Source: Sphingobacteriales bacterium (lineage in GTDB: Bacteria; Bacteroidota; Bacteroidia; AKYH767-A; OLB10). From it: a stretch of 47,540 bases of DNA. The notes beneath the pieces were generated by a model, which saw nothing but the letters and a program-made list of their open reading frames with translations, had not been told where the DNA came from and did no database searches. The position numbers and the translations under genes are program-made. The stretch lies in contig JAJTFW010000012.1 of the NCBI GenBank assembly GCA_021299095.1, positions 1 to 47,540 of the forward strand. The letters are read 5' to 3'. Numbering within the stretch: position 1 is the first letter of the stretch; each line of letters opens with the position of its first letter. Below, in pieces: positions 12,241 to 30,670 of the stretch.

Positions 12241-13212
12241 TCAAGATACGGAATCCTCAGCTACTGCAGCGAGCCAATGATCCAGATTCCGCCCCGTTAG
12301 CGTGGCGAGCCTACGGATGTCATCACTGTAATATGCACCAAGTTGTTTTTTCAGTTCAATCGGCATGGCGTCCCCTTGGTCGGCTTTACGGAAGAGGATA
12401 TTTCTGATCAGCCTCCTGATTTTCCGGCTTCGGATGGACTTGCGCAAGAAATCTTTTATCCCTTCAAGGCGCCATAAAATCCGTGTAAAGGCCGATCGCG
12501 GTAACTCGGAAGCGTTATGCCGTTTGCCGGATAGGGCGGGCACATGCTTGCGAATTTTGAGGAACGCGCAGAGTTCCCGAACTACGGCAGCCGGGTCTTC
12601 TACCAATTGTTCATACCACAATATCAGAATTTGCTCCGGCGGAAAAATATCCATGTATCGTTTCAGGTCATCCGAATAGCAGCCTAGTTCAGTGTAGAGC
12701 GCCGCACTTCCCCAAGTTCTGTGTTTGATTTCCCGATCGTGCAGGATTGCGTTGGTCAGCGGTTCCGTTGTCATGCCCATTCGCCTTTCCATGAGATAAT
12801 GTGATTGCAAGCGGCTCACGGGTTCGCGCAATATGACAACAATGCGGGCTTGCGGGTTATAGGCATGGATTTGTGCAGCAGCCATTGGCGAGTGCAGGTA
12901 CGATGGACTGGCCTCGCCCACAGCAATGGCTTCTCCTGAAAAGCGAAACAAGTCCTCATATTCTTTTCTGTCCTTTACAAGGAGGCTGTGTAAAGGATAG
13001 GGCATACCCTGATCAATATACCGTGTGATGTTTGTCTGCGCATACCGTTTCCGAATAATCGGCCGTAGATGTTCAGGGTTTATTTCAGAGGCAAAATGAT
13101 GAGGCTCCTTGATGGGACACATGAATACATCGGGGTGCTCAGATAGCAGCGAATACAAGGCCGTTGTTCCCGCTTTTGCAGCACCAATTATGAAAAAATT
13201 CGGTTTCCCCAT
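12241..13212 (-). CDS. Sulfotransferase (PAPS-dependent), second in tandem
   Basis: 323 residues. The PAPS 5'-phosphosulfate loop FIIGAAKAGTTALYSLL begins at residue 6 and the 3'-phosphate loop VILREPVSRLQSHY lies near residue 130; KEPHHF and the C-terminal LGAYYSDDIRRLATLTGRN helix match heparan-type (Sulfotransfer_1) enzymes. It starts with ATG 13212, two bases after the stop of the first tandem sulfotransferase gene and about eight before the third, so translational coupling is likely. The three tandem proteins differ substantially outside the cofactor motifs, which suggests distinct acceptor positions rather than redundancy. Acceptor unknown. Confidence 0.9.
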   Translation of the reverse strand: MGKPNFFIIGAAKAGTTALYSLLSEHPDVFMCPIKEPHHFASEINPEHLRPIIRKRYAQTNITRYIDQGMPYPLHSLLVKDRKEYEDLFRFSGEAIAVGEASPSYLHSPMAAAQIHAYNPQARIVVILREPVSRLQSHYLMERRMGMTTEPLTNAILHDREIKHRTWGSAALYTELGCYSDDLKRYMDIFPPEQILILWYEQLVEDPAAVVRELCAFLKIRKHVPALSGKRHNASELPRSAFTRILWRLEGIKDFLRKSIRSRKIRRLIRNILFRKADQGDAMPIELKKQLGAYYSDDIRRLATLTGRNLDHWLAAVAEDSVS

Positions 13213-13214
13213 TC

Positions 13215-14123
13215 CTAATTGCTCATTCGCCAGTGAGACAGGTCTCGGCCGATGTAGCCCTCAGTTGCACGGATATCATCAGCATACAGGTCGTAAAGTT
13301 TTTTCAATTGTTCTGGATCCGGTCTGAATTTTCCATTGGGATTTGGCTTGCGTAACCGGTGCAGGATATTTCGTTTGAGTTCTACGGGTAAAAGGCTTTT
13401 CACCAGCGGTCTGAGGAGTTTTCGGATCCGTTTGTTCGACAAGAAATAGCGGAATACCGGATTCGATTGTTGACTATCAGACAGATTGTACGTGGTGCGT
13501 ACATCGGGTGTAAAGGATTCATCTACATCCAGAAAACGGAATATTCGTTTCATTGTTTCGGCCGATTTATCGCCTGAAAGATCTTCTTGTAAAACGATTA
13601 ATACGTGACTGAACCCGGATTGAAATGCACTGACCGCCTCGGAGTAAAAGCCAAGTCCGGTGTATTGCCACATGAAATCCCAGCCAGCTTTTTTACGGAC
13701 AGCCTCGGCTTCAATTGCTTTTTCCAATTCGAATGGTTCAAGACCTGCATTTCGAAAATGGTTGTAACCACTGACAAGTCTTTCCACAGGATTACGAAGC
13801 ACCAGAATGATCTTTGGATTGCCCAGTATGTTTTGGATTTCGGGTATGCTTTCTTGGTAGTAGTATGCATATCCAGTGGAAACTTCTCCTACAGCTTTTG
13901 TTTTGCAGTCGGAATAGATCTTCAGGTAATCACCTTCCGTACGGATAATCCGGTTTGCGGGTCGTGCACCCGGTTCCTTTGGATCGGGTTTTTCATAATG
14001 ACTTTGAATGAAGAAAAAAGTTTCCTTTCGTGGAATGCTGATTTCTGGATGTTGTCGCAGGTAATAGAACAGCGATGTGGTCCCCGCTTTTGCAACACCT
14101 GCCACCAAAAAGTTCGGTTTCAT
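13215..14123 (-). CDS. Sulfotransferase (PAPS-dependent), first in tandem
   Basis: 302 residues, the most divergent of the three. The PAPS loops are VAGVAKAGTTSLFYYL at residues 6-21 and LVLRNPVERLVSGYNHF near residue 113; KETFFF and EVSTGYAYYY are typical of the substrate side, and the C-terminus ends RDLSHW. The ATG at 14123 overlaps the stop of the flippase gene in an ATGA arrangement, so translation is coupled. Its position next to the flippase suggests that sulfation is part of repeat-unit or polymer synthesis rather than an unrelated function. Whether it acts before export (cytoplasmic PAPS requires this) is inferred from the absence of a signal peptide. Confidence 0.9.
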   Translation of the reverse strand: MKPNFLVAGVAKAGTTSLFYYLRQHPEISIPRKETFFFIQSHYEKPDPKEPGARPANRIIRTEGDYLKIYSDCKTKAVGEVSTGYAYYYQESIPEIQNILGNPKIILVLRNPVERLVSGYNHFRNAGLEPFELEKAIEAEAVRKKAGWDFMWQYTGLGFYSEAVSAFQSGFSHVLIVLQEDLSGDKSAETMKRIFRFLDVDESFTPDVRTTYNLSDSQQSNPVFRYFLSNKRIRKLLRPLVKSLLPVELKRNILHRLRKPNPNGKFRPDPEQLKKLYDLYADDIRATEGYIGRDLSHWRMSN

Positions 14124-15693: not shown

Positions 15694-16782
15694 ATGAACC
15701 GTAATTTGCTTCGCACCGCACTGCTTTGTTTTGCCTTGTTCGGATTGGCGCATATCGTTCGTGCTCAGAATGGTTTTGAAAAACTGATCGTTGAACGCTA
15801 TTATGTAGTGGGCGCTGCCGATACGGTTGATTCGCAACTGAACGGTAATCTTCCGTTGGGTGCAGTTACCTATCGGGTTTACGTTGATATGGCTCCTGTG
15901 TATAGATTTCAGGCCTGCTATGGTGTGATGGGTCACGAACTGAAACTGAAGACATCCACCCGATTCTACAATTGTCCGGCTGCTGATGGTATCCTGGCGA
16001 ATGATATCCACCCTACATCCTTAAAGGTTCGTGCCGGCATGCTTGATAGCTGGATTTCTGTGGGTGCTGCTGGGCTCGATTATCAGGGTGTGCTCAAGTC
16101 TGAAGACGATACCACACAAAGCCTGGTTTTCGAAAATCAGCAGGGAATGCTTCGTAACAACGATACCTCTGCAGGTATTCCCTTGACTGAACGCGATGGT
16201 ATGCGCTTTCTCCGACTCCAACCAGCAGTCAATTCATTCAATCTGGAACAGGACCTGCGACTGTTCGACTACGCAAAGCGAAACGAGGTAAGAGGTACCA
16301 TTCGCACCACGGATGGTGCCTGGGCATCGTATGGTGGTACCGTTGGTCCGCAGCCCGAAAACCGGGTGCTGATAGCACAGCTAACCACCGATGGCTTGTT
16401 GGAACTTGAGTTAAATTTTCAGTTGGCAGTCCCCGGAGGCGGATCGGAGAAATATGTAGCCCGTGCTCCCCAGCAAGATGAAACACTGCGCACGGATTTG
16501 ATTTTTTTCAGTCACCCAGGGAAGCAGGCTCCGGTGGTTGAATTGCAGGCAAACCGTGCGTCTAAACGATCGATAATCCTACAAGCTGAAGCCACAGATC
16601 CCGACGATTCTGTCAAACGGGTCGATTTTTATAACAATGAACGCCTTGTTTTTTCCGATTTCGAAGCGCCTTTTGAGTTTGAATTGAAGCCCCCGGGCAC
16701 TGGTTCAGCAGGCTTTTTTTATGCCAAAGCGTACGATTCTGCCGGAATACCCTCACAATCGTCCACAATCAAAGTGGATTGA
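15694..16782 (+). CDS. Secreted protein of the NGLExxIVExYYV family, with Ig-like domain (member A)
   Basis: 362 residues. A signal peptide (MNRNLLRTALLCFALFG...RAQ) is followed by QNGFEKLIVERYYVV, the opening of a domain repeated in four proteins of this window. Shared landmarks are LPLGAVTYRVYVDMAP, YGVMGHELKLKTST, LDSWISVGAAG, GVLKSEDD, NDTSAGIPLTERDG and NRVLIAQLTTDGLLELELNFQL. From about residue 285 an Ig-like (Big_9-type) module follows, with VVELQANR, LQAEATDPDDSVKRVDFYNN and FYAKAYDSAG. Unlike its paralogues it has no type IX sorting tail, so it may stay periplasmic or be exported another way. I do not recognise a named family for the N-terminal domain. It has its own promoter and upstream inverted repeat. 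Confidence 0.8.
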   Translation: MNRNLLRTALLCFALFGLAHIVRAQNGFEKLIVERYYVVGAADTVDSQLNGNLPLGAVTYRVYVDMAPVYRFQACYGVMGHELKLKTSTRFYNCPAADGILANDIHPTSLKVRAGMLDSWISVGAAGLDYQGVLKSEDDTTQSLVFENQQGMLRNNDTSAGIPLTERDGMRFLRLQPAVNSFNLEQDLRLFDYAKRNEVRGTIRTTDGAWASYGGTVGPQPENRVLIAQLTTDGLLELELNFQLAVPGGGSEKYVARAPQQDETLRTDLIFFSHPGKQAPVVELQANRASKRSIILQAEATDPDDSVKRVDFYNNERLVFSDFEAPFEFELKPPGTGSAGFFYAKAYDSAGIPSQSSTIKVD

Positions 16783-16821
16783 ACGGAACGTAGGTTAAGA
16801 AATCCTTAGCCCACCAACGCC

Positions 16822-16836
16822 TTAACATAGGCTTAA
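16822..16836. promoter_or_regulatory. Inverted-repeat-like element TTAAC-N5-CTTAA (copy B of four)
   Basis: TTAAC, five bases, then CTTAA (one mismatch to the GTTAA half-site of copy A). It starts 59 bases upstream of the weak -7 candidate GAATTTTG at 16881-16888, ahead of the TonB-receptor operon. Confidence 0.35.
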
Positions 16837-16880
16837 TCCAAACATAACGCTGGCTTTTCATCCGGCGACGGCCATTTGGA

Positions 16881-16888
16881 GAATTTTG
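16881..16888 (+). promoter_or_regulatory. Weak -7 candidate (GAATTTTG) for the TonB-receptor operon
   Basis: One mismatch (G for T) to TANNTTTG, 66 bases before ATG 16955. It is listed mainly because its distance to the upstream repeat fits the pattern of the other units. Confidence 0.25.
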
Positions 16889-16954
16889 CGGAACTGTAAA
16901 ACAGGCAGTTTATTCCACTCATTCTTGCTCCATCAAACCACCCATACACCCATC

Positions 16955-18049
16955 ATGAAAAAACTCCTTACTCTTTTGCTATTCACCTGTTTCTTTTCTG
17001 CTTCGTTTGCCCAGAATGGACTCGAAGACGTGATTATAGAACGGTATTATGTTTCTGAGGCCAACGATACCTTGGCCAACGGGGTTGGCGGCATCCTGCC
17101 TGTCGGCTCGGTTACATACCGGATTTACCTCGATATGTTGCCGGGATATAAATTCCAGGTTGCTTATGGTGTGGCTAATCACGAAATGCGCATTGAAACC
17201 AGCACCTTGTTTTTCAATAACGAAGACCGTGGTTCAACGACTCCGAATTTTTCAGTCATCAATGCTGCAAAAAACACGGTCATGGTTGACTCCTGGCTTT
17301 CCTGCGGTGCTGCTTGTGTCGGCCGCATGGGCGTCCTCAAGACCGAGGACGATGGCGTGAGTAATATCGTAAACACATTTGTTCCTCAGGTGCTGCAGAA
17401 CAGTGATCCGATTGTGGGTATTCCACTGACCTTGCAGGACGGATTGATCCTGGGTACTCCAGAGCCTTTTACCGAGCTTGGTATCACCAATGAGATTGCG
17501 GTATTCGACAACCAGAATGACGGAACGAATGGCCCTGTGTTCTCCACCTTCAACGGTTCATGGTCCGCGCTGAACGGAGCTTCAGGTCCTGATTCACTCA
17601 CCAACAAGTTGCTGATTGCCCAAATCACAACAGATGGTAATTTCTGCTTCAAGCTCAACATACAGTTGCGTACACCTACTCCTGGAATTGTAGAAAACTA
17701 CGTATGGAGCAATCCAACTGGAAGCGAAATACTGTTCCCGGCGCTGCAATACTGTGCCAATGTGGGAAATCCGGAGATTGCCACCGAAACACCTGCTCCT
17801 GCATTTAGTGTATATCCCAATCCTTCTGCCGATGTATTCAGTATGTGGGTTTTCGGATCACGCGTACAAGGGGATTACAACTACCGCGTTTATGCGCTTG
17901 ATGGCCGCACAGTTCTGAATCGTCGCCTAGGTGTATTGAATAGTGATGTCATGGAGAAAATCGATCTGGGATCGCTCGAGTCAGGTGTGTATTTCGTTGA
18001 ACTCGAATTCGAAGGAAAAACAACTACCCGAAAAATCGTTAAGCGCTGA
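16955..18049 (+). CDS. T9SS-secreted protein of the NGLExxIVExYYV family (member B)
   Basis: 364 residues. A classic signal peptide (MKKLLTLLLFTCFFSASFAQ) precedes QNGLEDVIIERYYV and the full family domain to about residue 275: LPVGSVTYRIYLDMLPGYKF, YGVANHEMRIETST, FFNNEDRG, VDSWLSCGAACVGRMGVLK, NSDPIVGIPLTLQDG and LLIAQITTDGNFCFKLNIQL. The C-terminal 75 residues are a type A T9SS sorting domain: SVYPNPSADVF, YALDGRTV, GVYFVELEFEG and the basic end KIVKR. It is therefore likely exported and surface-attached. It is the first gene of a probable four-gene operon with the TonB receptor 40 bases downstream. An upstream TTG in the same frame (16886) lies in promoter sequence and is rejected. Confidence 0.82.
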   Translation: MKKLLTLLLFTCFFSASFAQNGLEDVIIERYYVSEANDTLANGVGGILPVGSVTYRIYLDMLPGYKFQVAYGVANHEMRIETSTLFFNNEDRGSTTPNFSVINAAKNTVMVDSWLSCGAACVGRMGVLKTEDDGVSNIVNTFVPQVLQNSDPIVGIPLTLQDGLILGTPEPFTELGITNEIAVFDNQNDGTNGPVFSTFNGSWSALNGASGPDSLTNKLLIAQITTDGNFCFKLNIQLRTPTPGIVENYVWSNPTGSEILFPALQYCANVGNPEIATETPAPAFSVYPNPSADVFSMWVFGSRVQGDYNYRVYALDGRTVLNRRLGVLNSDVMEKIDLGSLESGVYFVELEFEGKTTTRKIVKR

Positions 18050-18089
18050 TTTTTCAGCCTGAAACCCCCTCAGCGAAGATTACGCGCGT

Positions 18090-21000
18090 ATGCAGAAGTC
18101 CATATTTCTTACACTGTTTCTCTTGTCATTCACACGACTTGTATCCGCCCAGGGTACAATTCGTGGAAAAGTCTCCGATAACCTTGGGGAGGCATTGATA
18201 GGCGTAACAGTGGTTGTCAAAGGGAATACCACCATAGGCTCTTCGACCGATTTCGATGGGAATTACTCCCTACGGTTGCCCGATGATAAACCGGTCGTGC
18301 TGCTCATTTCCTATATCGGATTCAGAACACTTGAAGAGCAGGTGCAGGTCACTGGTGGCGGCGTACTCGTTAAAAACTTCGTGCTTCAATCATCTGCAGT
18401 AGAGGTGAAGGAAGTGAAGGTTGAAGCAAAAGCTGTTAAAGCTGCGAACTATTACATGGAGAATATGAAGAAGCAGTCGGCAACCAGCATCGACTACATT
18501 TCTTCGGAAACCATGCGTAAGACCGGCGATAACAATGTGGCTTCAGCGGTCTCACGAGTTACGGGTGTATCAAACACCAGTTCTGGATTCATCACTGTTC
18601 GCGGTATTGGCGATCGCTATATCCGCACCACGGTGAATGGCTCAACCATTCCTACGCTCGATCCCTTCACCAATAACATCCGGTTGGATTTCATCCCGGC
18701 GAATCTGGTCGATAACATCATCATAACCAAGACAGCCTCACCTGATTTGCCTGGTAACTGGGCAGGTGCTTACATCTCGGTTGAAACCAAGGATTATCCG
18801 GAACAGCTGACTGTCGCTGCTGAAACGCAAATCGGGTACAATACGCAAAGTACTTTCCGGAATATCCTGTCGGGTGATCGTAGCCCAACGGATTGGTTGG
18901 GTTTCGATAATGGATTGAGAGATCGTGACCACAGTGGATTCATTGAGTATACGGTGCGACCAACCCAGTTTCAGGAGATGGTTGCATTGGGCTTGGGTTC
19001 GTTTTATGCTTCACTCGGAATTACAAGTTCCTGGGATCCGAATTCACAACAGGGCCAGGATCTGTTCAAGCTTGGCCTTGTGGAGCTTGGATTACTCGCC
19101 CCCGCTCAGATCAATGACCCGGTTGCATTCGCAGCAGCTGTTGATACGTATGAATCGAACCAGGCACTGCAAGCATTTGAAACCATCAACGGCCCTGCTG
19201 CTGCTCAAAACAAGACTTTTGCCAATACCTGGCAGCTTGGCACCCGTCGTGCTCCGGTCAATTTCAGTCAGTCATTCGGTGTCGGCAATCAGGTCAGCTC
19301 TGGAAAAACGGGAACACTCGGTTACCTGTTTGGTGTTAGATACGGTAGCAATGTAGTGTATGATCCATCCTCTACGCTTGGCCGTGCACGGACAGATCAG
19401 AACAATGTATTGGGCGTTCCTTTTACCGCGGACCAACGTATCAGCCGGGAAACGAATACCTGGAGTGCTTTAGCGAAGCTTTCCTATAAGTTTAATCCGA
19501 ATCACAGCGTCAGTGCCTTGTTCATGCCCAACCTGAATGGTTCGAATAGCGTCCGCGAATTGTCAGGCATCGGCTTTTTTGAAGATCAGCCCTTGACACA
19601 ATTCTTCTCGAAGGATCAGATTTACGAGGAGCGTCGACAGTTGGTTTACCAGTTTGCCAGTGATCATTACTTCCCGGGCATTAAGGGTAAATTGGAAACC
19701 AAGGCTTCTTATACCGATGGACGAAGTAATATCCCGGATTTCCGAAGTCTCAGTCTTTTCGATGCGGATGATATCATCGTAAGTGGAATCGGGAATTCGC
19801 CCAACACCCGCGATTTCCGTTACCTGAATGAGGATGTGATTGATGCACGCTTATCGCTCGAGATGCCCATCAGCGAAAAACCGGGTATGAGCCGCAAAAT
19901 GAAGTTCGGTGGTTCATACACGCAACTTGACCGAGATTTCAATCAGTATCAATACATATTGAGTGCTACCGACAGCAATGGTAATGCCGTCACCGGCTCA
20001 TACGAAGTACCCAATGGGGATCTTGATGCGTTCCTCAACACAAGTAATTTTGATATTCAGGCATATACCTTTCAGGGAATTCCGCGCCGCAGAGCCAATA
20101 TTTTTTACATCGATACCGATTTCCCTGGCAACCGTACACTCGGTTACAGCAAAGTACTGGCGGGGTTTGCCATGGCTGATTACTCCATCGATATGAAATG
20201 GCGTGTAACCGGTGGACTGCGCGTAGAGCATGCACGCATTTTTGCCGATATCTACGAGTACTACGTCAAAGGCTATGCGAAAAACGATATCCGTAGGAAG
20301 GCCGAAGGGGATAATTTCCTTTCGAATCCAGGAGATATCGATGTGGTCAAGTTCCTTCCGAGTGTCAGTGTGATCTACAAATACATCGATGATGACACCC
20401 GTTCATCGAACATCCGTTTCAACTACGCGCGTTCAACAGCCTATCCAAGTATTCGCGAAATCACCGAAAACAACGTACTCGATTTCGAATTGCGTTCCAT
20501 CGTTTCCGGTAACAGCGAGCTTAAACCCGTCGATATCGACAATTTTGATATCCGCTGGGAAACGTACCTGAAGTCAGGAAATACAATTTCTGCCAGCGGA
20601 TTTTATAAGCGTTTTGTGAACCACATCGAACTACTCAATTTCAATGAGACCAACACCTGGACCAACTCCGGATTATCATACGTAGCAGGCCTCGAATTGG
20701 AAGGAGTCAGAAAGTTCAGCAAGCAACTTGAGGTTCGGGCGAATGCAACCTTTATTTATTCGGAAACCAATGTGATTTTGCGCTCTGTTCGTAGCTCCGA
20801 TGGTATCAAGGAGTATGTGCCTTATGATACGCTTGTTCGTAGCATGTTCGGTCAGGCACCGTATGTATTCAACACCATTATCAACTACGCGTTTGAAAAG
20901 TCTAAAGTTAACTTGACCTTATCGTATAACGTGCAGGGCCCCCGTCTTGTCTTCGCAGCGACAGAAACCGCTCCCGATGTATACGAAATGCCCAGGAATC

Positions 21001-21179
21001 AGATTGATCTGAAGGCGACTCGTCCATTGGGTAAACATTTTACCGCTGCACTTACACTGCGTGATATCCTGAACCAGCCCGTGCGTCGCAAGTTCGACCT
21101 CGGCGATGGACAGAAGCTCGATTACGATAGCTATCGCTGGGGGACAGGTATCACCCTTGGAATCACATACCGCTTGTAA
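18090..21179 (+). CDS. TonB-dependent outer-membrane receptor with carboxypeptidase-like N-domain, no SusD partner
   Basis: 1029 residues. After the signal peptide (ends about SAQG) comes a CarboxypepD_reg-like domain, GTIRGKVSDNLGEALIGVTV through DFDGNYSLRLP and SYIGFRT. A plug domain follows (about 125-235: ETMRKTGDNNVASAVSRVTG, FITVRGIGDRY, LVDNIIITKTASPDLPG), then a long 22-strand-type barrel ending GITLGITYRL. Such receptors import substrates using TonB/ExbBD energy. SusC-type glycan importers normally have a susD gene next door; here the neighbours are two NGLE-family proteins and a FISUMP lipoprotein, and the stop overlaps the next ATG (TAATG). The substrate is unknown; the partners may be extracellular ligands or surface subunits. 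Confidence 0.9.
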   Translation: MQKSIFLTLFLLSFTRLVSAQGTIRGKVSDNLGEALIGVTVVVKGNTTIGSSTDFDGNYSLRLPDDKPVVLLISYIGFRTLEEQVQVTGGGVLVKNFVLQSSAVEVKEVKVEAKAVKAANYYMENMKKQSATSIDYISSETMRKTGDNNVASAVSRVTGVSNTSSGFITVRGIGDRYIRTTVNGSTIPTLDPFTNNIRLDFIPANLVDNIIITKTASPDLPGNWAGAYISVETKDYPEQLTVAAETQIGYNTQSTFRNILSGDRSPTDWLGFDNGLRDRDHSGFIEYTVRPTQFQEMVALGLGSFYASLGITSSWDPNSQQGQDLFKLGLVELGLLAPAQINDPVAFAAAVDTYESNQALQAFETINGPAAAQNKTFANTWQLGTRRAPVNFSQSFGVGNQVSSGKTGTLGYLFGVRYGSNVVYDPSSTLGRARTDQNNVLGVPFTADQRISRETNTWSALAKLSYKFNPNHSVSALFMPNLNGSNSVRELSGIGFFEDQPLTQFFSKDQIYEERRQLVYQFASDHYFPGIKGKLETKASYTDGRSNIPDFRSLSLFDADDIIVSGIGNSPNTRDFRYLNEDVIDARLSLEMPISEKPGMSRKMKFGGSYTQLDRDFNQYQYILSATDSNGNAVTGSYEVPNGDLDAFLNTSNFDIQAYTFQGIPRRRANIFYIDTDFPGNRTLGYSKVLAGFAMADYSIDMKWRVTGGLRVEHARIFADIYEYYVKGYAKNDIRRKAEGDNFLSNPGDIDVVKFLPSVSVIYKYIDDDTRSSNIRFNYARSTAYPSIREITENNVLDFELRSIVSGNSELKPVDIDNFDIRWETYLKSGNTISASGFYKRFVNHIELLNFNETNTWTNSGLSYVAGLELEGVRKFSKQLEVRANATFIYSETNVILRSVRSSDGIKEYVPYDTLVRSMFGQAPYVFNTIINYAFEKSKVNLTLSYNVQGPRLVFAATETAPDVYEMPRNQIDLKATRPLGKHFTAALTLRDILNQPVRRKFDLGDGQKLDYDSYRWGTGITLGITYRL

Positions 21180-22570
21180 TGAAACTGAAAATAGAAGGAC
21201 TGATGAAGAAGATTAATTCCATTACCCGCCTGATGTTTTTCGCCATCTTTTTGATGGTGGGAGGTCAGGCCGTGGCTCAGATCAAAGGCCTCAATGTCGA
21301 GAAATATTACATCGCTGATTCAAACGATGCGACTGATACCACAGGCGGAAGGAGTTTGCAAGTAGGTAGTGTGACCTATCGTGTCTTTGTGGAGATTGAA
21401 CCTGGGTCTCGCATCACAAAAATTTATGGCGACGCCAACCATCCCCTGGAGTTTAGCAGCTCGCAGAATTTCTATAACAACATTGATAGGCCATCAAGTG
21501 AGTTCGGATATGAGATTCGGAGTTCGTGGTTCTCTGACAACCCTACACTCGCACTCGACTCATGGATAACCTTGGGTTGGGCTGCCAATCTTGAGAAAGG
21601 AGTTTTGAAATCCCTGGACCCGGATGGCGATGCCATCACCGGACAAAATAACACGGGCGGAACAGCGCTGATTCCCGCCGGACTCTTGGTCAATACAGAC
21701 ACCTCCATGGGCGTTCTGTTGTCACAAGCCGATGGACTTACTTCTACAATTGCTGCTGCCACGTATGGACAATGGGCTGAGGGTGGATTTAAGGATTTGA
21801 GCGGAAATGATACAACCGTTTTCGGATCGGTTCAATACGGCAATGTGTTTTCATGTTCTTCCTGTGAGTTACGACAAAACCTGGGCGTGATTGGTGCTGG
21901 CGTTGACAGCAACCGGGTGTTGGTTGCGCAGCTCACTACGGCGGGTGACTTGAATTTCAGCATCAACCTGGAACTGCAGGTGCCTGATCCACAAAATGGA
22001 GGATTCGTTACCATCAAATACGTTGCCGACGCATCAGTCCTACTTCCTGGCGAACAGGCAAGTCCTTATTTGAGTTATCCTCCTGTTTGTGGCTGCACGG
22101 ATCCGCGTTATCTCGAATACAGCCCGACGTTTAGCTGCAGTGAAGCGGATTCGTGTATCAACCTCATCGTTTTTGGTTGTATGGATTCAGCTGCATGCAA
22201 TTTCCGTCCGGATGCCAATTACAACATTCCATCACTGTGTTGTTATCCAGGCTACTGCAACGACCTTGACATCAGCAAGGTTTGTCCACAATTGAATTAC
22301 AACCGCTTCGGATCTGCATCTTTAGCAATAGCTCCCAACCCTGTGACAGGACCGATCACCTTGGAAATCCTCTCGCCTGAGGATCAGGATGCCATGCTGA
22401 TTATTACCGATATGATGGGAAGGCAGGTATTCAAACGCTCGCTGTACCTCGATGAGGAACTTACGGTCTATTCAATGGATTATGCCTGGTTGCCAGAGGG
22501 TGTATACATTGTGCAGGTCCAAGGCCGCAGGTTAGACAGCTCAATCCGTATGGTGCGTGTTAACCCCTAA
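21179..22570 (+). CDS. T9SS-secreted protein of the NGLExxIVExYYV family with Cys-rich module (member C)
   Basis: 463 residues from ATG 21179, which overlaps the TonB-receptor stop by one base; ATG 21203 (MKKINSITR) is an alternative. A signal peptide ending AVAQ is followed by IKGLNVEKYYIADSND and the family landmarks VGSVTYRVFVEIEPGSR, YGDANHPLEFSSS, LDSWITLGWAA, GVLKSLD, NTDTSMGVLLSQADGL and NRVLVAQLTTAGDLNFSINL. From about residue 300 a Cys-rich stretch carries two copies of a GCxDP/S...ACNF module common in Bacteroidota surface proteins. The end (IAPNPVTGPITLEI, GVYIVQVQG, MVRVNP) is a type A T9SS sorting domain. It is probably surface-exposed and coupled to the receptor. Confidence 0.8.
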   Translation: MKLKIEGLMKKINSITRLMFFAIFLMVGGQAVAQIKGLNVEKYYIADSNDATDTTGGRSLQVGSVTYRVFVEIEPGSRITKIYGDANHPLEFSSSQNFYNNIDRPSSEFGYEIRSSWFSDNPTLALDSWITLGWAANLEKGVLKSLDPDGDAITGQNNTGGTALIPAGLLVNTDTSMGVLLSQADGLTSTIAAATYGQWAEGGFKDLSGNDTTVFGSVQYGNVFSCSSCELRQNLGVIGAGVDSNRVLVAQLTTAGDLNFSINLELQVPDPQNGGFVTIKYVADASVLLPGEQASPYLSYPPVCGCTDPRYLEYSPTFSCSEADSCINLIVFGCMDSAACNFRPDANYNIPSLCCYPGYCNDLDISKVCPQLNYNRFGSASLAIAPNPVTGPITLEILSPEDQDAMLIITDMMGRQVFKRSLYLDEELTVYSMDYAWLPEGVYIVQVQGRRLDSSIRMVRVNP

Positions 22571-22598
22571 GCCAGCCCGAATACAATCCTTAAAAACC

Positions 22599-23318
22599 AT
22601 GAAAAGTCTCCTCATTTACATGTTCAGTTTCTGCTTTCTGGTGATTGCCGGCTGTAAGGAAGAAGAGCAGCAGCCAGCTATCGAAACCGGTACAATGGCT
22701 GATGTAGACGGTAATACGTACACCACAGTCAAAGTCGGCAACAGCTGGTGGATGGCAGAAAACCTTCGTGTAACACATTATCGTGATGGAAGCCCCATTA
22801 CACGACTTGATTCAGACATCGACTGGCTCAGCGGTAGTGCAGGGTACTCGGTGCACCCTGAAGCGACTACCCTCATGGGCAATTTATACAACTGGGCAGC
22901 AGTAAGTAATAGCATCCCGGTTGCTCCTGATGGTTGGCACATTGCTACGGATGAGGAATGGAAGCAGCTTGAATTGGATTTGGGTATGTCCTCCTCTGCA
23001 GCTAATGCCTTAGGCTGGCGCGGTGGCAAGGAAGGTGATGCACTTAAGGCTACAGGAACCGTGAATTGGGCTCGATATGATCCAGTTTGGGCCGATAATT
23101 CGAGCGGCTTTTCCGCACTTTCTGGTTCGTGTAGGATATTTGATGGACGCTTCGGAACACCCGGTAAGGGATATGCGGGCTTCTGGTGGACTTCATCTGC
23201 CAGCACCTTGCATCCCGATAAAGCCTACTACCGGTACCTCGATTACAAGCGCTCATCCGTTTTTCGTCAAACCGAACAAGTGAAATATGGCTTTAGTGTA
23301 CGCTGCGTTAAAGATTGA
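22599..23318 (+). CDS. FISUMP-domain lipoprotein
   Basis: 239 residues. The lipobox is VIAGC near residue 18, so it is a lipoprotein. The mature part is the Fibrobacter succinogenes major paralogous domain (TIGR02145 type): DVDGNTYTTVKVGNSWWMAE, NLRVTHYRDG, YNWAAV, GWHIATDEEWKQLE, FSALSGSCR, GFWWTSSAS and YGFSVRCVKD. The fold resembles C-type-lectin/sulfatase-modifying domains, and its functions are unknown. ATG 22599 gives a compact signal; the 14-codon upstream extension from GTG 22557 overlaps the previous gene and is unlikely. It is the last gene of the operon, with a strong terminator 25 bases downstream. Confidence 0.85.
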   Translation: MKSLLIYMFSFCFLVIAGCKEEEQQPAIETGTMADVDGNTYTTVKVGNSWWMAENLRVTHYRDGSPITRLDSDIDWLSGSAGYSVHPEATTLMGNLYNWAAVSNSIPVAPDGWHIATDEEWKQLELDLGMSSSAANALGWRGGKEGDALKATGTVNWARYDPVWADNSSGFSALSGSCRIFDGRFGTPGKGYAGFWWTSSASTLHPDKAYYRYLDYKRSSVFRQTEQVKYGFSVRCVKD

Positions 23319-23342
23319 TGTCTTGAGTTTATGATAGATCTG

Positions 23343-23366
23343 CGGGGGCAATCGCCCCCGTTTTTT
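23343..23366 (+). terminator. Rho-independent terminator of the TonB-receptor operon
   Basis: A seven-base-pair GC stem (CGGGGGC / GCCCCCG) with loop AATC is followed by six T residues, 25 bases after the FISUMP stop. Confidence 0.9.
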
Positions 23367-23382
23367 GTTGATGTACGCCGTG

Positions 23383-23397
23383 TTAACATTCCGGTTA
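23383..23397. promoter_or_regulatory. Inverted-repeat-like element TTAAC-N5-GGTTA (copy C of four)
   Basis: TTAAC followed five bases later by GGTTA (or six bases later by GTTAT). It starts 70 bases upstream of the -7 element at 23453. It is the weakest right half of the four copies. Confidence 0.3.
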
Positions 23398-23452
23398 TCT
23401 ACTTATAATGATTTGATAAGTTGGGCGTAAAGACAGCATATCGGCTCGGGTC

Positions 23453-23460
23453 TAGTTTTG
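23453..23460 (+). promoter_or_regulatory. Candidate -7 element (TAGTTTTG)
   Basis: Exact TANNTTTG match, 45 bases before ATG 23506; drives the beta-helix/member D pair. Confidence 0.55.
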
Positions 23461-23505
23461 CGGACAATCTCATTCGACAGACAACAACCAAACTCAATCT
23501 TTATC

Positions 23506-25113
23506 ATGAAAAACCTCTTCTCAACACTGCTCGCCGGTGCCGCTCTGGCCGCCGGAGTAGTCAGCTCGGGCAATGCCCAGTCAAACCTTGGCGCCGATTG
23601 CGGATGTCCGCCCGTCGCCAGCCGTCCGACCAAAAACGTTAGTGTCATCTCCGATGCGAACGCAAACCTCACCGCGAACTATTACTTTTTCTGTGACACG
23701 ACCTACATCCTCAACGAGAAGTTGTACGTCGCCAACGGAGTTACACTCACAATTGCTCCCGGAACCGTTGTTAAAGGCGCTGTTACCGGTGTTGGTGTTC
23801 CTCAAAACTCGTTGATCGTAACACGCGGAGGTAAATTGATTGCAGATGGTACTCCGACTTGTCCGATCGTATTCACTTCGAGTAATGACCCAATGAATGG
23901 AACGTACCCATTGGGTAACCGTGGTGAGTGGGGTGGAGTACAGATCCTTGGTCGTGCTCAGCTTGCCCGTATTGGTGGTACCTTCGGAACTACAACCACT
24001 GTTAACGGTGAGTGGGTTATGGAAGGACTCAACAACGATCCCCGTTCGGTGTTCGGTGGTGGAGCAACCCCAATCAACAACGACAATTCTGGAATTATCC
24101 GTTACGTTTCTATCCGCCATGCAGGTGGTTCTACAGCGGCAAACACCGAATTGAACGGACTTTCACTTGGTGCAGTCGGTAGTGGTACAATCATCGAAAA
24201 CGTTGAAATTGTTTCCAATGACGACGATGGAATCGAGTGGTGGGGTGGTACCGTAAACGGTAAATACATCAGCAACCTGTTTGTGAATGACGACGGTTTC
24301 GATATCGACATGGACTTTGACGGTAAACTCCAGTTTCTTTTCGGTCTTAAGGCCCCTGTATCGATTGCTTCAGGTGGTGAAAGTGGATTTGAGTGGGATG
24401 GTGACGAAGGTGCCAGCACATGGTTTGGTGGTTACTCCAGCGCTGTTTCAACCTGGCGTTCGCATCCGGTTGTGTACAATGCAACCATCATTGGTAACGG
24501 TTCAACCTCATCTGCTACCGGAACAGGTTTCACCACTGGAAACCCCTTTGGTGTGAGCTTCAAGTCGAAAGCTGAAGGTGAGATCTACAATTCCATCTTT
24601 ACCGGTTTTAACTCAGCCTTTAATTTGCAGGCGAGCACCGATTCATCCAAGTTGTTGTATGACAATAACCTGGTGAAAATTGGTTGTAACCACATCATTC
24701 CGAACACCAAAGGCATTTCTGCAACTGCTGCAAACGTTACCTTCACCGGTGCTGACTCTGTTCGTTTCTTCGGAACAGATGCCAACGTTAGTGTTGCCAG
24801 TATCGCTGGGTTTGATGCCAGCTTCGATGTAAACGGAAGCACCAATCAGGTGACCAACAACATCGACGTAGTTCCGACCAGCAACATTGCTACTACCTGT
24901 ACGCCTCCTGCCGACGGTTTCTTCACACCGGCTAACTACCGTGGTGCTTTCGAAGCAGGTAAGAAGGGATGGTTGAACAAGTGGGCTTATACCTCTGTCG
25001 TAAATATCATTCCCGGTTTGGCACCATGTCCTACCGATCTGAACGCTGATGGCGTGACCAACACCTCCGACTTCCTGTTGTTCGTAGCACAGTTCAACCT
25101 GTCCTGCAACTAA
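23506..25113 (+). CDS. Secreted beta-helix-like protein with C-terminal dockerin-like motif
   Basis: 535 residues. After the signal peptide (ends GNAQ) the chain reads as a repetitive right-handed beta-helix: YVANGVTLTIAPGTVVKG, LIVTRGGKLIADG, CPIVFTSSNDP, GEWGGVQILG, IRYVSIRHAGG and IENVEIVSNDDDGIEWWGG. Proteins with this TIAPGTVVKG pattern are abundant at Bacteroidota surfaces; their function is unclear. The last 25 residues, CPTDLNADGVTNTSDFLLFV, are a single dockerin-like calcium loop with helix, which may dock onto a cohesin-like partner. No type IX sorting tail is present. It is followed 52 bases later by member D, with AGGAA before that ATG, so the two form an operon. Confidence 0.8.
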   Translation: MKNLFSTLLAGAALAAGVVSSGNAQSNLGADCGCPPVASRPTKNVSVISDANANLTANYYFFCDTTYILNEKLYVANGVTLTIAPGTVVKGAVTGVGVPQNSLIVTRGGKLIADGTPTCPIVFTSSNDPMNGTYPLGNRGEWGGVQILGRAQLARIGGTFGTTTTVNGEWVMEGLNNDPRSVFGGGATPINNDNSGIIRYVSIRHAGGSTAANTELNGLSLGAVGSGTIIENVEIVSNDDDGIEWWGGTVNGKYISNLFVNDDGFDIDMDFDGKLQFLFGLKAPVSIASGGESGFEWDGDEGASTWFGGYSSAVSTWRSHPVVYNATIIGNGSTSSATGTGFTTGNPFGVSFKSKAEGEIYNSIFTGFNSAFNLQASTDSSKLLYDNNLVKIGCNHIIPNTKGISATAANVTFTGADSVRFFGTDANVSVASIAGFDASFDVNGSTNQVTNNIDVVPTSNIATTCTPPADGFFTPANYRGAFEAGKKGWLNKWAYTSVVNIIPGLAPCPTDLNADGVTNTSDFLLFVAQFNLSCN

Positions 25114-25165
25114 TCAATTTTTTTTCGAGACGAGAATTTTTAATCAACCATAAACAGGAAAAACC

Positions 25166-28100
25166 ATGTTTCGTAAACTGTTAAGTCTTTCCATGTTCGT
25201 TCTGGCAGCCGCGGCACCCGCTGCGGCCCAGAACGGCCTGGAGAACATCATTGTAGAAAAATACTATGTGTCCAATGCCGCTGATGCGGCAAATGCCAAT
25301 ACTGCACTGACTGATGCCGGATATTCAACGGGTACATTGCCTGCAGGATCAGTGACGTGGCGTATCTATGCCGACTTGTTGCCCGGTTGGGGTGTACAGT
25401 CGGTTTATGGAGTTCCTTCGCATCCATTACTGCTGAGCACTACGACCTCGTTTTTCAATCACCCGAATGGTAACTCTACCGGTGGAAACTTCGCCAGTAA
25501 TTCCAGCTCCATTATCGGTGATGGTACTACACTGCTCGATTCCTATTTATCGTGCGGTGCAGTAGCGCCTGGCCGTTTCGGTGTGATTAAGACCGAGGAT
25601 AACTCAGCAGCTGTGCCAACTGGTGGTGGTACGAACCTGGTCATCAATCCGAATACTGTTCTGGCTAACAATGATCCCTCAGCTGCGCCAGCACTGACCT
25701 CGGCTGATGGTTTGTACAACACAGCAAACAATCCTGCACTCCTCGCCCTTACCTTGTTGGGTGATGCTGCTTCTGGCCCGATTAACATACTTACCGATGG
25801 TTCCATCATTGGCAACTCCTTCAACTCTACCAACTGTTCATGGGGCGTTTTGGGTGAGCAAGTCGGCGCGTTCCCAACGGGAACAAACCGTGTCTTGATT
25901 GGACAATTCACATCGGATGGCGTATTTACCTACGCACTCAACATTCAGCTGCGTAACAACACCACATTCGCAGTTCAGAATTTTGTGAATTCGAACCCGA
26001 CCGGCAACGAGATATTGTTGACTGCCCTGGCAGGAACACTTAACCAGGCAAATGCTGCACCGACCGTGAGTATTACCGCACCTACTGCAGGAACCTCATA
26101 CCTGGTTGGTGATGTGGTTAATATCGCTGCTACTGCTGCGGATGCCGATGGTTCTGTTGCTTCTGTAGAATTCTTCGTTAACGGAGTTTCCGTTGGAGTG
26201 GACAATACTGCACCCTATACGGCTACTTACACTGCTGCCGGTATCGGTTCAAAGGCCATTACTGCCAGAGCCACTGACAACCTCGGAGCTCAAACAACCT
26301 CAGCTGCAGTCAATGTAACTGTTGGATCGAATAATGCACCAACGGTTTCTGTTACTGCTCCCTCGAACGGAGCCTTGGTAATTGGTGGTGCTGCGGTAAA
26401 CATCACTGCAACAGCTGCCGATAGCGATGGATCCATCACACAGGTTGAATTTTTTGTGAGTGGCATTTCCGTTGGTGTTGACAACTCATCACCTTTTGCT
26501 GTTTCATGGACGAGTGCTTCTCCCTTCGGGAACCGCGTGATTACCGCAGTCGCAACTGACAACGCAGGCGCAACAACCACTTCAGCCGGAGTAACGATCA
26601 ATGTTCAAAACCCGAACGCGCTGGCCTATACAGTAGGCAATATTTCAGCTGGATGTTCCAACAGCACGTTCTGCCTGCCTATTAGTGCTATCGACACTGT
26701 GGCTAATGTGATTGGTTATGATATCGTTTTGGATTACGATGCCGCTAAAGTCACTCCGACCGGTGCAATCGTACGCAAGAACGACCTACTTCAGCCCAGC
26801 TTCAACAGCAACATGGTGAGCACGGCGTTCTCTAACGATGCTACCAATGGTAAGGCGTATATCTCCGTTTACTTCAACGGCAGTGCCCCATCCAGTGCAC
26901 GTTTCTCCGGAACCGGTGACATCATCTGCGTTGAATTTGCCAAGACCGGTTTGGGCACCAATGACACTGCAGTTTTTGTTGCGGATACCCTCTTGGAAAG
27001 CCGTATCACCGGTGTTCAGTTGGTGGGAACAGATGCAGGTTCGTTCATTAACTACTCTGACAGCCTCTTCAGCGGAAGCTTGAAGTTCTGGCTCGATTTC
27101 AGCCCAATCAAGTACAATCAGGCTGCTCCTGGCGATTACCTTGTCACCAATATCTACTCAAACAACTCTAGCTGCAATGCACGCTCTGCAACCGCTTCAC
27201 AGCCGGATGTCAACGGTATCTTCAATTTTAATGTGAACTCTGGTAGTCGCATCGAAATTGTGAAGGATGTAGCTTCAGCTACTGACGTACAGCCTGTGAT
27301 CAATGGTTTCGATGCATTCCTCATGCGTCGTGTGTTGGTGAATGATGCATCATTCGTTCCCTCTGTATACCAGATTATCGCCATGGATGTAAATACCGAT
27401 GGTGTTGTTTCAGCCGGTGACCTTTCACAGATCAACCAACGTGCAGTATTGTTGCTTCCTGAATTCCAACAGGATTGGAACTATAATGCACAGGGTGTTT
27501 CGAATGGTCAACCTTCTCGTGACTGGTTATTTGTGGATGTTACCACCTTCTCGAGCAATCCCAATTATGCTGTGTCTTCTACATATCCATCCAACGATGG
27601 CGTAGGTTACAGCAAGAACCGTGTTCCTCAGGTTGAATTTTGCAGCCCGATACCCGTCAGCCTGGTTGGTGATTGCCCCTTGATCGGAACCGAGAATTAT
27701 ATCGGTTTGATGTTGGGAGATGTAAACGGTAACTACGCATCAAACAACGGCGCTCCGAGCCCATTCCGTAGCACTTCCGATGCGGTTGTTTTCGATGCCG
27801 CACGTTCGTATGAGGTTGACGGATTCGTTAACGTCCCTGTTCGTTTCACGGGTGCTTCGGTCCATTCAATCGACTTCTCGTTTAATTACGACCGCAGTCA
27901 ATTGGAATTTGTCAGTGCTACCGATTTATCCGGACAACTGATGATGCTTACGCACGAGTCATCGAACGATCAGCTCGTCCGTTTCACATCAAGCAGTCTT
28001 CAGGAGGTATCAGGTAATGCTGCAGTTGCTGCCCTACGTTTCCGTAAGTTGAACGATAATGCCGTTGCAGGCATTCAGCCCGTGAACGCCTTCCTGGATG

Positions 28101-28384
28101 GCGAATCAGTATCAACTGAGGTGACTTCTCGCTCGCAGAATGCTGCTGTACCCGTCATGAATGTATACCCGAACCCCGCTCAGGATCTCTTGTTCGTATT
28201 GAGCTCTGTAGACGTACAGCTTGAACTGACAGATATCAGCGGACGTACATTGATGACCATCAATAATGTACTTGCTGGTGAGCGTACCGACCTCAGTGTT
28301 GCTGGAGTAGCAAACGGTGTGTACGTTCTCAAGGCAATCAGTGGTGACCAAGTCAGCACAACACGGATTGTTGTTAAGCGATAA
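25166..28384 (+). CDS. Large T9SS-secreted multidomain protein: NGLE-family domain, Ig-like, cohesin-like and dockerin-like modules (member D)
   Basis: 1072 residues. Signal peptide to about 21; NGLE-family domain at 22-295 (QNGLENIIVEKYYVS, LPAGSVTWRIYADLLPGW, LDSYLSCGA, NRVLIGQFTSDGVFTYALNI). Two Ig-like Big_9 modules lie at about 299-388 and 391-483 (APTVSITAP, ATAADADGSVASVEFFVNG and the parallel copy). A cohesin-like beta-sandwich occupies about 490-630 (FCLPISAIDT, VIGYDIVLDYDAAKV), a dockerin-like loop about 735-760 (MDVNTDGVVSAGDLSQIN), and a second cohesin-like domain about 875-975 (VNVPVRFTGASVHSIDFSFN, YDRSQLEFV). The C-terminus is a type A T9SS sorting domain (VYPNPAQDLLF, GVYVLKAI, RIVVKR). 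It looks like a surface scaffold. Cohesin and dockerin calls are pattern-based and need profile support. Confidence 0.8.
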   Translation: MFRKLLSLSMFVLAAAAPAAAQNGLENIIVEKYYVSNAADAANANTALTDAGYSTGTLPAGSVTWRIYADLLPGWGVQSVYGVPSHPLLLSTTTSFFNHPNGNSTGGNFASNSSSIIGDGTTLLDSYLSCGAVAPGRFGVIKTEDNSAAVPTGGGTNLVINPNTVLANNDPSAAPALTSADGLYNTANNPALLALTLLGDAASGPINILTDGSIIGNSFNSTNCSWGVLGEQVGAFPTGTNRVLIGQFTSDGVFTYALNIQLRNNTTFAVQNFVNSNPTGNEILLTALAGTLNQANAAPTVSITAPTAGTSYLVGDVVNIAATAADADGSVASVEFFVNGVSVGVDNTAPYTATYTAAGIGSKAITARATDNLGAQTTSAAVNVTVGSNNAPTVSVTAPSNGALVIGGAAVNITATAADSDGSITQVEFFVSGISVGVDNSSPFAVSWTSASPFGNRVITAVATDNAGATTTSAGVTINVQNPNALAYTVGNISAGCSNSTFCLPISAIDTVANVIGYDIVLDYDAAKVTPTGAIVRKNDLLQPSFNSNMVSTAFSNDATNGKAYISVYFNGSAPSSARFSGTGDIICVEFAKTGLGTNDTAVFVADTLLESRITGVQLVGTDAGSFINYSDSLFSGSLKFWLDFSPIKYNQAAPGDYLVTNIYSNNSSCNARSATASQPDVNGIFNFNVNSGSRIEIVKDVASATDVQPVINGFDAFLMRRVLVNDASFVPSVYQIIAMDVNTDGVVSAGDLSQINQRAVLLLPEFQQDWNYNAQGVSNGQPSRDWLFVDVTTFSSNPNYAVSSTYPSNDGVGYSKNRVPQVEFCSPIPVSLVGDCPLIGTENYIGLMLGDVNGNYASNNGAPSPFRSTSDAVVFDAARSYEVDGFVNVPVRFTGASVHSIDFSFNYDRSQLEFVSATDLSGQLMMLTHESSNDQLVRFTSSSLQEVSGNAAVAALRFRKLNDNAVAGIQPVNAFLDGESVSTEVTSRSQNAAVPVMNVYPNPAQDLLFVLSSVDVQLELTDISGRTLMTINNVLAGERTDLSVAGVANGVYVLKAISGDQVSTTRIVVKR

Positions 28385-28403
28385 ATTTTAGTTTGAATAT
28401 TTA

Positions 28404-28431
28404 GGCCCCGGAGTATTCCGGGGCCTTTTTT
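28404..28431 (+). terminator. Rho-independent terminator after member D
   Basis: A nine-base-pair stem (GGCCCCGGA / TCCGGGGCC) with a four-base loop and six T residues, 20 bases after the stop. Confidence 0.92.
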
Positions 28432-28442
28432 GTTTAGATAAC

Positions 28443-28457
28443 TTAACAAAAAGTTTA
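28443..28457. promoter_or_regulatory. Inverted-repeat-like element TTAAC-N5-GTTTA (copy D of four)
   Basis: One mismatch to copy A, and both are preceded by AC and followed by a matching A at the same positions. It starts 48 bases upstream of the -7 element at 28491. Confidence 0.38.
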
Positions 28458-28490
28458 CATCAAGCGACTTTAGGAGCTGAGAGCTCAAGA

Positions 28491-28498
28491 TACCTTTG
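28491..28498 (+). promoter_or_regulatory. Promoter core (TACCTTTG) five bases before a start codon
   Basis: Exact TANNTTTG match. Only five bases separate it from ATG 28504, so the transcript would be leaderless or almost so. Confidence 0.5.
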
Positions 28499-28503
28499 GA
28501 ATC

Positions 28504-29289
28504 ATGATCAATAAGAACATATCATTCAGCATTCTTTGTTTTATCCTGCTTTCATTGCAGGGCTTGTCAATTGACCTACACGAGGCGAAACACTATTCCA
28601 CCCTGGATTTAACTGAAATTCAAACTCCAGCTATCGACTCACTGGATACTGTGATCTTCGATTTGTCGCAAGCCGTATATGGCTCCAATACGGTTTATTT
28701 TCCGGTCTATTTCTCTTCGGATGATCTTATTTATGCACTTGATTTCGCATTGCGTTACGTGGATTCAAGGCTTGTGTATGATACGATAACGCTTGCGCCC
28801 GCGGGCTCTGGATTATTGGCTTACTCATTTCTAAATCCAGCCGATTCAACCGTCCGGTTTACTTCAAGCCAATTTGTTGCGCTCCCTAATCGGCAACCCA
28901 TAGCATTCGTGCATTTTGAACTGATTCCTGGAACTACCTCGCTTGATACGACTGATTTTTATAATCTCCGTGGATTACTCAATGGGGATCCATGCACTGA
29001 ATTGGTAATTCCGCCAGGTGTGACATCGTTAAATGAACCGGTTCTTTCAGTAGATATCAAGGTGTTTCCCAATCCTACCACGCAATCGTTCTCGTTGTGT
29101 GTTGATGAGCCCGGATTGCTTTGGATTATCGGCTCAAACGCTAATGAGTTGTTCAGTACTCCGGTTTCGGTTAATCGGGGAGAGAACAGAATTACATTAC
29201 CGGCTAATTGTGCTCCGGGAACGTACTTGTTGAAGTTTTTAGCAGGGAAACGCTTGGGTTCTGCTTATTTACTGGTTGGCGATAAATAA
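28504..29289 (+). CDS. Small T9SS-secreted protein with a cohesin-like domain
   Basis: 261 residues. A signal peptide (SFSILCFILLSLQGLS) is followed, at about 50-150, by a cohesin-like jelly-roll pattern: VYFPVYFSSDDLIYALDFAL, RYVDSRLVYD, VRFTSSQFVA and PIAFVHFEL. The C-terminal region (IKVFPNPTTQSFSL, NRGENRITLP, CAPGTYLLKF, ending LLVGDK) is a type A T9SS sorting domain with an unusual final segment. The cohesin-like part resembles the second cohesin-like domain of member D, just upstream. It has its own promoter and upstream inverted repeat. Its 3' end is 34 bases from the convergent GH1 gene. A binding partner with a dockerin-like module is plausible but unproven. Confidence 0.7.
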   Translation: MINKNISFSILCFILLSLQGLSIDLHEAKHYSTLDLTEIQTPAIDSLDTVIFDLSQAVYGSNTVYFPVYFSSDDLIYALDFALRYVDSRLVYDTITLAPAGSGLLAYSFLNPADSTVRFTSSQFVALPNRQPIAFVHFELIPGTTSLDTTDFYNLRGLLNGDPCTELVIPPGVTSLNEPVLSVDIKVFPNPTTQSFSLCVDEPGLLWIIGSNANELFSTPVSVNRGENRITLPANCAPGTYLLKFLAGKRLGSAYLLVGDK

Positions 29290-29323: not shown

Positions 29324-30661
29324 TTAGGTGGATTGTGTTTGTTTCCGGATATAATCGCCGTACCAGAAACCAGAATCCTTGATTGTCCTTCGCTGAGTCG
29401 CATAATTGATATGCGTTAATCCGAAGCGTGGAAAATACCCTTCTGACCATTCGAAATTGTCGGTCAACGACCAGGCGAAATATCCGTTCACTTTCGCGCC
29501 CTCGGCGCGTGCCTTCAAGGTTGCAGAGATGTATTGATCGAGATAGCTAATTCTCATTTTGTCATTTACGCGACCCGCATCAACTTGATCTGGAAATGCG
29601 GCTCCGTTTTCTGTTACAATCACCGATTTTATTTCAGGGTATGCACTGAATTTATGAATCATTTGGTACAACCCTTCAGGATAAATATCCCAGCCAATCA
29701 TTGTTTTGTTTCTTGGATTAGAGCTGTTCTCCGTCTTTTTTGCTTGCAGGTAAGGAACCCACCATACATGCTTTACCGTTTCTCGCGTATAGTTTTGCAA
29801 TCCGATAAACGAGGGTAGTTCAATCATCCGGCTTTCATCACCGGCCATCATCCACTTTCCGACTTTTCGTAAAAAGGACAATTCCTTAATCGGATAACCA
29901 TATCCGATCAATGGCTCAACAAACAGCCTATTAAATAAGGCATCTGCACGGAGGGCAGCGCCTTGATCTTTCGGATTTGTTGATACGGGTACCACTGGCG
30001 CACAACTAAAAGTTGTACCGGCAATCAGATTTGATTTATAGGATTTTATTTGCCGGATTCCATCCGCTTGTGCCAGGATGGCATGGTGCATAGCCGGCAG
30101 AAAATTGCTGAGCCCCGTTTTTCCAGGAGCGTGGATTCCAAGGAAATACCCTGCCCCAGTAAATGCCAGAGGCTCATTGAGGCTCATCCAATGCACTACC
30201 CGATCAGACAACCTTTTAAGGACACTTCCCGAGTAATCTTCAAACCAGCCTAAAACATCGCGATTTACCCATCCCCCTTTGTCCTGTAAAATTTGCGGCA
30301 AGTCCCAATGGTATAATGTCACCCACGGCGTAATTCCGAATTCAAGGCAGGCGTCTGTAAGTCGGTCGTAGAAATCCAATCCATTTTCATTGGTCTTTCC
30401 GTAACCGTTCGGCTTTACCCTTGGCCATGATATGGAAAACCTTAGGTTGGGAATCCCAAGTCGTGCGGCCAGTGCTACATCTTCGCGATAGTATCGGAAA
30501 AACTCAGTTGCTTGATTAGGACGATGGCCTCCGGTTATTTTCCTTTTCTTTTCGGCAAAAACATCCCAAATCGATGGTGTTCTACCTTGAAAATCAGGAA
30601 AGCCTTCGGTCTGTTGGGCCGACGTTGCTACTCCCCAATGAAATTCCGGCCTGTTGTCCAA
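29324..30661 (-). CDS. Glycoside hydrolase family 1 (beta-glucosidase-like), cytoplasmic
   Basis: 445 residues covering a whole GH1 TIM barrel. Landmarks are FHWGVATSAQQTEG, RFSISWPR, TLYHWDLPQ, LNEP with acid/base Glu163, NYT, VTENG with nucleophile Glu351, and the aglycone/glucose loop WSLTDNFEWSEGY. All catalytic residues are present and there is no signal peptide. It hydrolyses or transfers beta-glycosyl residues; the substrate is unknown. The only usable start is TTG 30661, nine bases after the TGA of the upstream glycosyltransferase and in the same reading frame. The operon with a GT28-like enzyme and an LpxH-like phosphatase suggests glycolipid or glycan-intermediate processing rather than plain sugar catabolism; this is inference. 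Confidence 0.92.
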   Translation of the reverse strand: MDNRPEFHWGVATSAQQTEGFPDFQGRTPSIWDVFAEKKRKITGGHRPNQATEFFRYYREDVALAARLGIPNLRFSISWPRVKPNGYGKTNENGLDFYDRLTDACLEFGITPWVTLYHWDLPQILQDKGGWVNRDVLGWFEDYSGSVLKRLSDRVVHWMSLNEPLAFTGAGYFLGIHAPGKTGLSNFLPAMHHAILAQADGIRQIKSYKSNLIAGTTFSCAPVVPVSTNPKDQGAALRADALFNRLFVEPLIGYGYPIKELSFLRKVGKWMMAGDESRMIELPSFIGLQNYTRETVKHVWWVPYLQAKKTENSSNPRNKTMIGWDIYPEGLYQMIHKFSAYPEIKSVIVTENGAAFPDQVDAGRVNDKMRISYLDQYISATLKARAEGAKVNGYFAWSLTDNFEWSEGYFPRFGLTHINYATQRRTIKDSGFWYGDYIRKQTQST

Positions 30662-30670
30662 TTGGAGTAT

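Follow-up and report, generated by a model that had tools for sequence, protein, structure and literature searches.

The closest described counterparts of the locus reported here pair a TonB-dependent receptor with a secreted or surface-exposed partner. In Flavobacterium johnsoniae, the receptor Fjoh_0545 and the lipoprotein FII (Fjoh_0546) lie in the phoBR cluster (PUSIV) and are strongly induced on phosphate depletion (PMC8115612). FII and its relatives are homologous to ElpS (Cc0170) of Caulobacter, a low-Pi surface lipoprotein that is induced by phosphate starvation and whose gene sits beside those of the TonB receptor Cc0171 and the T2SS (PMC2996285); a function for such pairs is suggested in the literature. 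The locus we describe also contains a receptor (T) next to a secreted protein (H), accompanied by a FISUMP lipoprotein (F), a cohesin-bearing scaffold (C) and a family of secreted proteins that share a domain we call D. T and H resemble Fjoh_0545/0546 in placing a TonB receptor beside a secreted protein of the pectin-lyase-fold type, but FII is a lipoprotein, and the description of that pair mentions neither D proteins nor a FISUMP protein, a cohesin scaffold or a dockerin tail. ElpS and Cc0171 likewise combine a secreted H-type protein with an adjacent TonB receptor, but ElpS is a lipoprotein released by a T2SS-dependent route, and no D domain or cohesin is described. Our literature search found no description of the D locus itself.

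The locus occupies positions 15694-29289 of a window of 47,540 nucleotides, the whole stretch of DNA analysed here (contig JAJTFW010000012.1, assembly GCA_021299095.1, a Sphingobacteriales bacterium). It is well supported as one conserved eight-gene outer-surface locus of lake and sludge Bacteroidota, organized in two units, and all of its genes are on the forward strand. Three D genes, D-A1, D-A2 and D-B, share the first unit with T and F in the order D-D-T-D-F, and H and C form the second. About 58 distinct loci retain this order with minor variation, and in them the D genes keep company with T, F, H and C in fixed order; the preliminary description had proposed a surface system with a TonB receptor from clustering in this window alone, and the synteny supports it. 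The dockerin tail of H, the two transcription units, the phosphate link and the short-form relatives of D lay beyond what that description could cover. Median gaps are 42 bp for D-T, 12 for T-D, 17.5 for D-F, 390 for F-H and 41 for H-C, so that D-D-T-D-F and H-C constitute two tight co-directional units with the widest gap between them. In the window, the F-H gap contains a strong terminator-like hairpin (23342..23361) at the end of the first unit, and another terminator-like hairpin (28403..28426) ends the second. Downstream lies a gene for a small secreted protein with a sorting-like tail (28504..29289), which has no Pfam hit in the window copy, while several of its homologues score as a cohesin plus a T9SS tail. 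The flanking genes on the opposite strand, a GH5 cellulase-type gene (8855-10006) and a sulfotransferase gene within 8855-14123 and a GH1 (29324-30661) and a glycosyltransferase gene within 29324-31738, are probably unrelated neighbours.

The four D proteins of the window begin alike and end differently. D-A1 (15694..16782) has a signal peptide, a D domain (15769-16515) and one Ig-like Big_7 domain with no T9SS tail; D-A2 (16955..18049) has a D domain (17015-17752) and a T9SS sorting tail; D-B (21179..22570, or possibly starting at the ATG at 21203) has a D domain (21281-22081), a Cys-rich CTDPxxxxYxP repeat and a T9SS tail; and C (25166..28384) has a D domain (25232-26035), two Big_7 domains, a cohesin, a dockerin, a second cohesin and a T9SS tail. 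The preliminary description was right about this family and its surface setting: the common N-terminal domain of the four secreted proteins is confirmed by an alignment in which 38 columns are invariant, mean column identity is 53% and identity to the first copy is 32-39%; the landmarks it listed occur in order, and the four tails do differ as it said. Its single domain stands as well, at about 250 residues rather than about 270. The third member, D-B, is the most divergent, reading IKGLNVEKYYI, LQVGSVTYRVFVEI, LDSWITLGWA and GVLKSLD at the landmarks. Among orthologues, a T9SS tail is present in 52 of 54 D-A2 proteins, 51 of 55 D-B proteins and 31 of 46 C proteins, many C genes being cut by contig ends; D-A1 is usually a bare D domain in relatives, with a T9SS tail in only 3/43.

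A profile built from the four D copies recovers each of them at E < 1e-108, and in the window's genome it finds a fifth copy (C50:10677-11480, E 9.6e-98). Together with copies in 23 other relatives, these matches show that the family is not a product of chance. The fifth copy lies outside the locus, opens a 974-aa protein with a T9SS tail and is nearest to the D domain of C. The profile matches 24 of 61 relatives, mostly with 3-10 copies each; D is present in 34/295 genomes of the class and in 3/198 genomes of a phylum-wide draw, and the named records are mostly Bacteroidota MAGs, many from lake, pond or sludge by isolate name. In a tree of 136 D copies, sequences group by their position in the locus (15 label changes, against 75.5 when labels are shuffled), and D-B forms a single clade in 38/38 loci (SH-aLRT 100). 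This clustering by position indicates that the D paralogues are old and mostly have not been interchanged.

What is the D domain? The preliminary description knew no named family for it, and that holds across every collection searched: none of 45 members matches Pfam, NCBIfam returns single chance hits only (E >= 0.016, up to 45 members), and neither PHROGs nor PDB sequences give a match. An AlphaFold model built from 45 members is confident (pLDDT 94.3, pTM 0.93) and predicts one mostly beta domain with inserts, a beta-sandwich, for which Foldseek against PDB and BFVD finds nothing at E <= 0.001 (best E 0.18). In VIA the best Z is 5.6, and the rows at Z 4-5.6 are mainly cohesins and adhesin domains, with a BBSome subunit among them; the likeness may reflect nothing beyond a common arrangement. 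A short form of D, about 145 residues long and lacking the central insert, is homologous to the long form (hhalign probability 99.8, E 1.6e-29) and is found, singly or in repeats, in genomes from a different family (G102 and G324). Judged by these profile comparisons, D is an unnamed domain that forms a superfamily with the short form. G102 and G324 carry many short-form domains, some of them repeated and joined to Cys-rich CTDPxACNYNP repeats. One weak short-form match was seen on an IMG/VR viral contig (L178:3001-3453), in a protein with many CTDP Cys repeats, and a plasmid search with one short-form sequence gave no match.

The most elaborate D protein is C. Its first cohesin (26630..26938) scores 21.4 bits alone in Pfam and its second (27788..28123) 27.7 bits; the two together reach 37.4 bits against PF00963, whose cut-off is 24.1, and the predicted fold is also that of a cohesin. 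The model of cohesin 1 (pLDDT about 90) resembles clostridial cohesins, aligning to 5nrk_A with Z 15.7 at 2.7 A over 135 residues. Between the cohesins lies a type I dockerin (27296..27439; 21.3 bits, just under the cut-off of 22.9) that is seen in 19/19 orthologues, and the T9SS sorting tail (28163..28375) yields a model that aligns to the C-terminal domains of PorU and mirolase with Z about 11. Within the window, D-A2, D-B and C carry a T9SS sorting domain and D-A1 and H do not, and within the window's genome Pfam cohesins occur in C only. C thus shares with clostridial cellulosome scaffoldins the cohesin fold and a dockerin. The D locus departs from a cellulosome in that no CBM or enzyme cargo was seen, there is apparently one client with a single F-hand, and export is by T9SS.

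The candidate client is H (23506..25113), a secreted protein whose beta-helix is predicted from its sequence pattern and its relatives in the literature; it has no match in PDB and no full-length paralogue elsewhere in the window's genome. H-type homologues are common, occurring in 224/295 genomes of the class and usually beside a T homologue. In D loci, H has a signal peptide with neither a lipobox nor a T9SS tail, and in place of the latter ends in a half-dockerin (25012..25110 in the window, CPTDLNADGVTNTSDFLLFVAQFNLSC). Outside D loci this tail was found on none of 31 H proteins from carrier and non-carrier genomes, nor on any of the 54 in a second set that overlaps the first in part; of these, 28 have a T9SS tail, 21 a lipobox and 5 neither. 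Strong hits to the tail (E <= 1e-9) occur only in genomes that carry D, and in one case (L119) a D locus and a plain phoBR-T-H pair stand in tandem. On the simplest reading of these sequences, H has exchanged its anchor in connection with the cohesin scaffold, and H is likely tethered by a cohesin-dockerin interaction. The tail is a single F-hand (consensus CPTDINxDGxTNNxDFLxLLGxFNQSC) where a two-repeat dockerin was looked for in H, and it scores weakly against known dockerin models (E 0.012), for which reason docking of H to C is something that we infer.

Alternatively, the half-dockerin could be an export or sorting signal rather than a docking tag. H has neither T9SS tail nor lipobox, yet its relatives are surface proteins, and some D proteins of the locus in G102 also end in two half-dockerins; against this, a cohesin scaffold is encoded directly after the protein that bears the tail, and the loop of the tail follows the F-hand pattern DxNxDG. 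We consider an export signal unlikely.

The phosphate connection comes from the relatives of T and H. Of 55 neighbourhoods of plain T-H pairs, about 13 have a PhoB-type regulator next to the pair; two pairs lie inside pst-OprP clusters, and one (L280) has the order PhoR-PhoB-T-H, matching Fjoh_0543-0546. An alphaproteobacterial H homologue, in Indioceanicola, stands in the order H-TBDR-T2SS, like Caulobacter elpS-cc0171-gsp, and further named records show H followed by a TBDR. The assignment of H to the FII/ElpS type draws on the order of the genes and on homologues of H that share this setting rather than on a direct sequence match. Among the D loci, 7/41 have homologues of phoB, pst or oprP no more than 7 kb upstream (0.24 Mb of flanking DNA); a control of 0.8 Mb, a limited amount of DNA drawn from related genomes and partly from other genomes, has none (Fisher P 6e-5). 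In one D locus (L097), oprP-pstSCAB-phoU immediately precedes the D genes and is co-directional with them. Since the window's own D locus has no Pho gene nearby, we infer its phosphate role from these relatives, and by that analogy the role may be held with moderate confidence. Orphan PhoB-type DNA-binding domains of about 100 aa, with no receiver, lie directly beside three D loci (L050:1612-1920, L082:2675-3001, L095:6275-6580), and it is possible that they are dedicated regulators.

Could the locus instead encode a surface adhesin or matrix system, in which the D proteins are adhesive beta-sandwich modules, C an adhesive scaffold, and T works for a different nutrient or assembly? Weak alignments link the D model to adhesin domains (Als3 at Z 5.5, SdrC, ClfA, GspB) as well as to cohesins, tails of the Ig and Cys-rich kind are characteristic of surface proteins, and the short form makes repeats in other genomes. 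The constant association of D with T and H, together with the Pho-gene neighbours, argues the other way, and to us an adhesin system seems doubtful.

Less probable still is a locus that works like a glycan-utilization system, with F, H and D binding polysaccharide for uptake through T. FI and FII have been modelled as polygalacturonase-like (PMC8115612), GH1 and GH5 genes lie nearby, and, as in SusCD/PUL systems, a lipoprotein stands beside a TonB receptor with a CarboxypepD_reg domain. T (18090..21179) consists of this N-terminal domain and a Plug domain; it scores 172.7 bits against TIGR01782, under the cut-off of 310, its PDB match is limited to the short N-terminal domain, and it has no full-length paralogue elsewhere in the window's genome. 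The lipoprotein F (22599..23318, VIAG/CKEEE), found in nearly all D loci, is a Fib_succ_major protein (149.9 bits, cut-off 33.9) rather than a SusD, and no SusD match was found among the scanned locus proteins. T reaches 59 bits against the SusC/RagA-type model TIGR04056, far below its cut-off of 368, the neighbouring GH genes lie on the opposite strand, and no glycoside hydrolase or other CAZyme is conserved within the D locus. We dropped the PUL reading because SusD and conserved CAZymes are both missing, and rate a glycan role as quite improbable. That D is a divergent cohesin binding the dockerins of H and C is very improbable: cohesins make up about half of the best VIA rows for D (Z 4-5.1 over 115-131 residues), but a Z of about 5 is in the background range, the best Foldseek E is 0.18, and the Pfam cohesin model (PF00963) does not match D, while the true cohesin of C scores Z 15.7.

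We give roughly even credence to the reading that the locus is a cohesin-dockerin-tethered variant of a phosphate-scavenging T and H system in which the D proteins are surface binding modules. Its core would be the widespread pair of a TonB receptor and a secreted beta-helix protein, which belongs to the phosphate-starvation response in the organisms studied. In this lineage, H has neither the T9SS tail nor the lipid anchor found among its relatives and ends in a half-dockerin; the scaffold C, co-transcribed with H and presumably exported by the T9SS, would offer cohesins. Because C appears to be both T9SS-exported and cohesin-bearing and H ends in a half-dockerin, docking most likely keeps H at the surface beside T. 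D-A2, D-B and C would bring the D domain to the surface through their T9SS tails, whereas D-A1 is usually a bare D. The domain itself is most likely a binding or structural beta-sandwich module that either collects phosphorus-bearing polymers or organizes the assembly for uptake through T. A bolder proposal, offered tentatively and with less than even expectation, is that the long and short forms of D make up a new surface beta-sandwich superfamily which, with the dockerin-tailed H and the T9SS cohesin scaffold, forms a cellulosome-like apparatus for capturing phosphorus compounds, not cellulose.

In conclusion, the best reading of the locus is that of a phosphate-starvation TonB receptor/beta-helix pair in derived form, which bears cohesin and dockerin modules and has added four secreted D proteins of its own. 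A widespread, unnamed family of secreted proteins thereby gains a genetic setting and a testable role. The H family appears to use three anchors: a lipid, a T9SS tail and, solely in loci whose following gene encodes a cohesin scaffold, a half-dockerin. Should the phosphate role be true, cohesin-dockerin assembly would reach beyond the degradation of plant fibre, to phosphorus scavenging in aquatic Bacteroidota.
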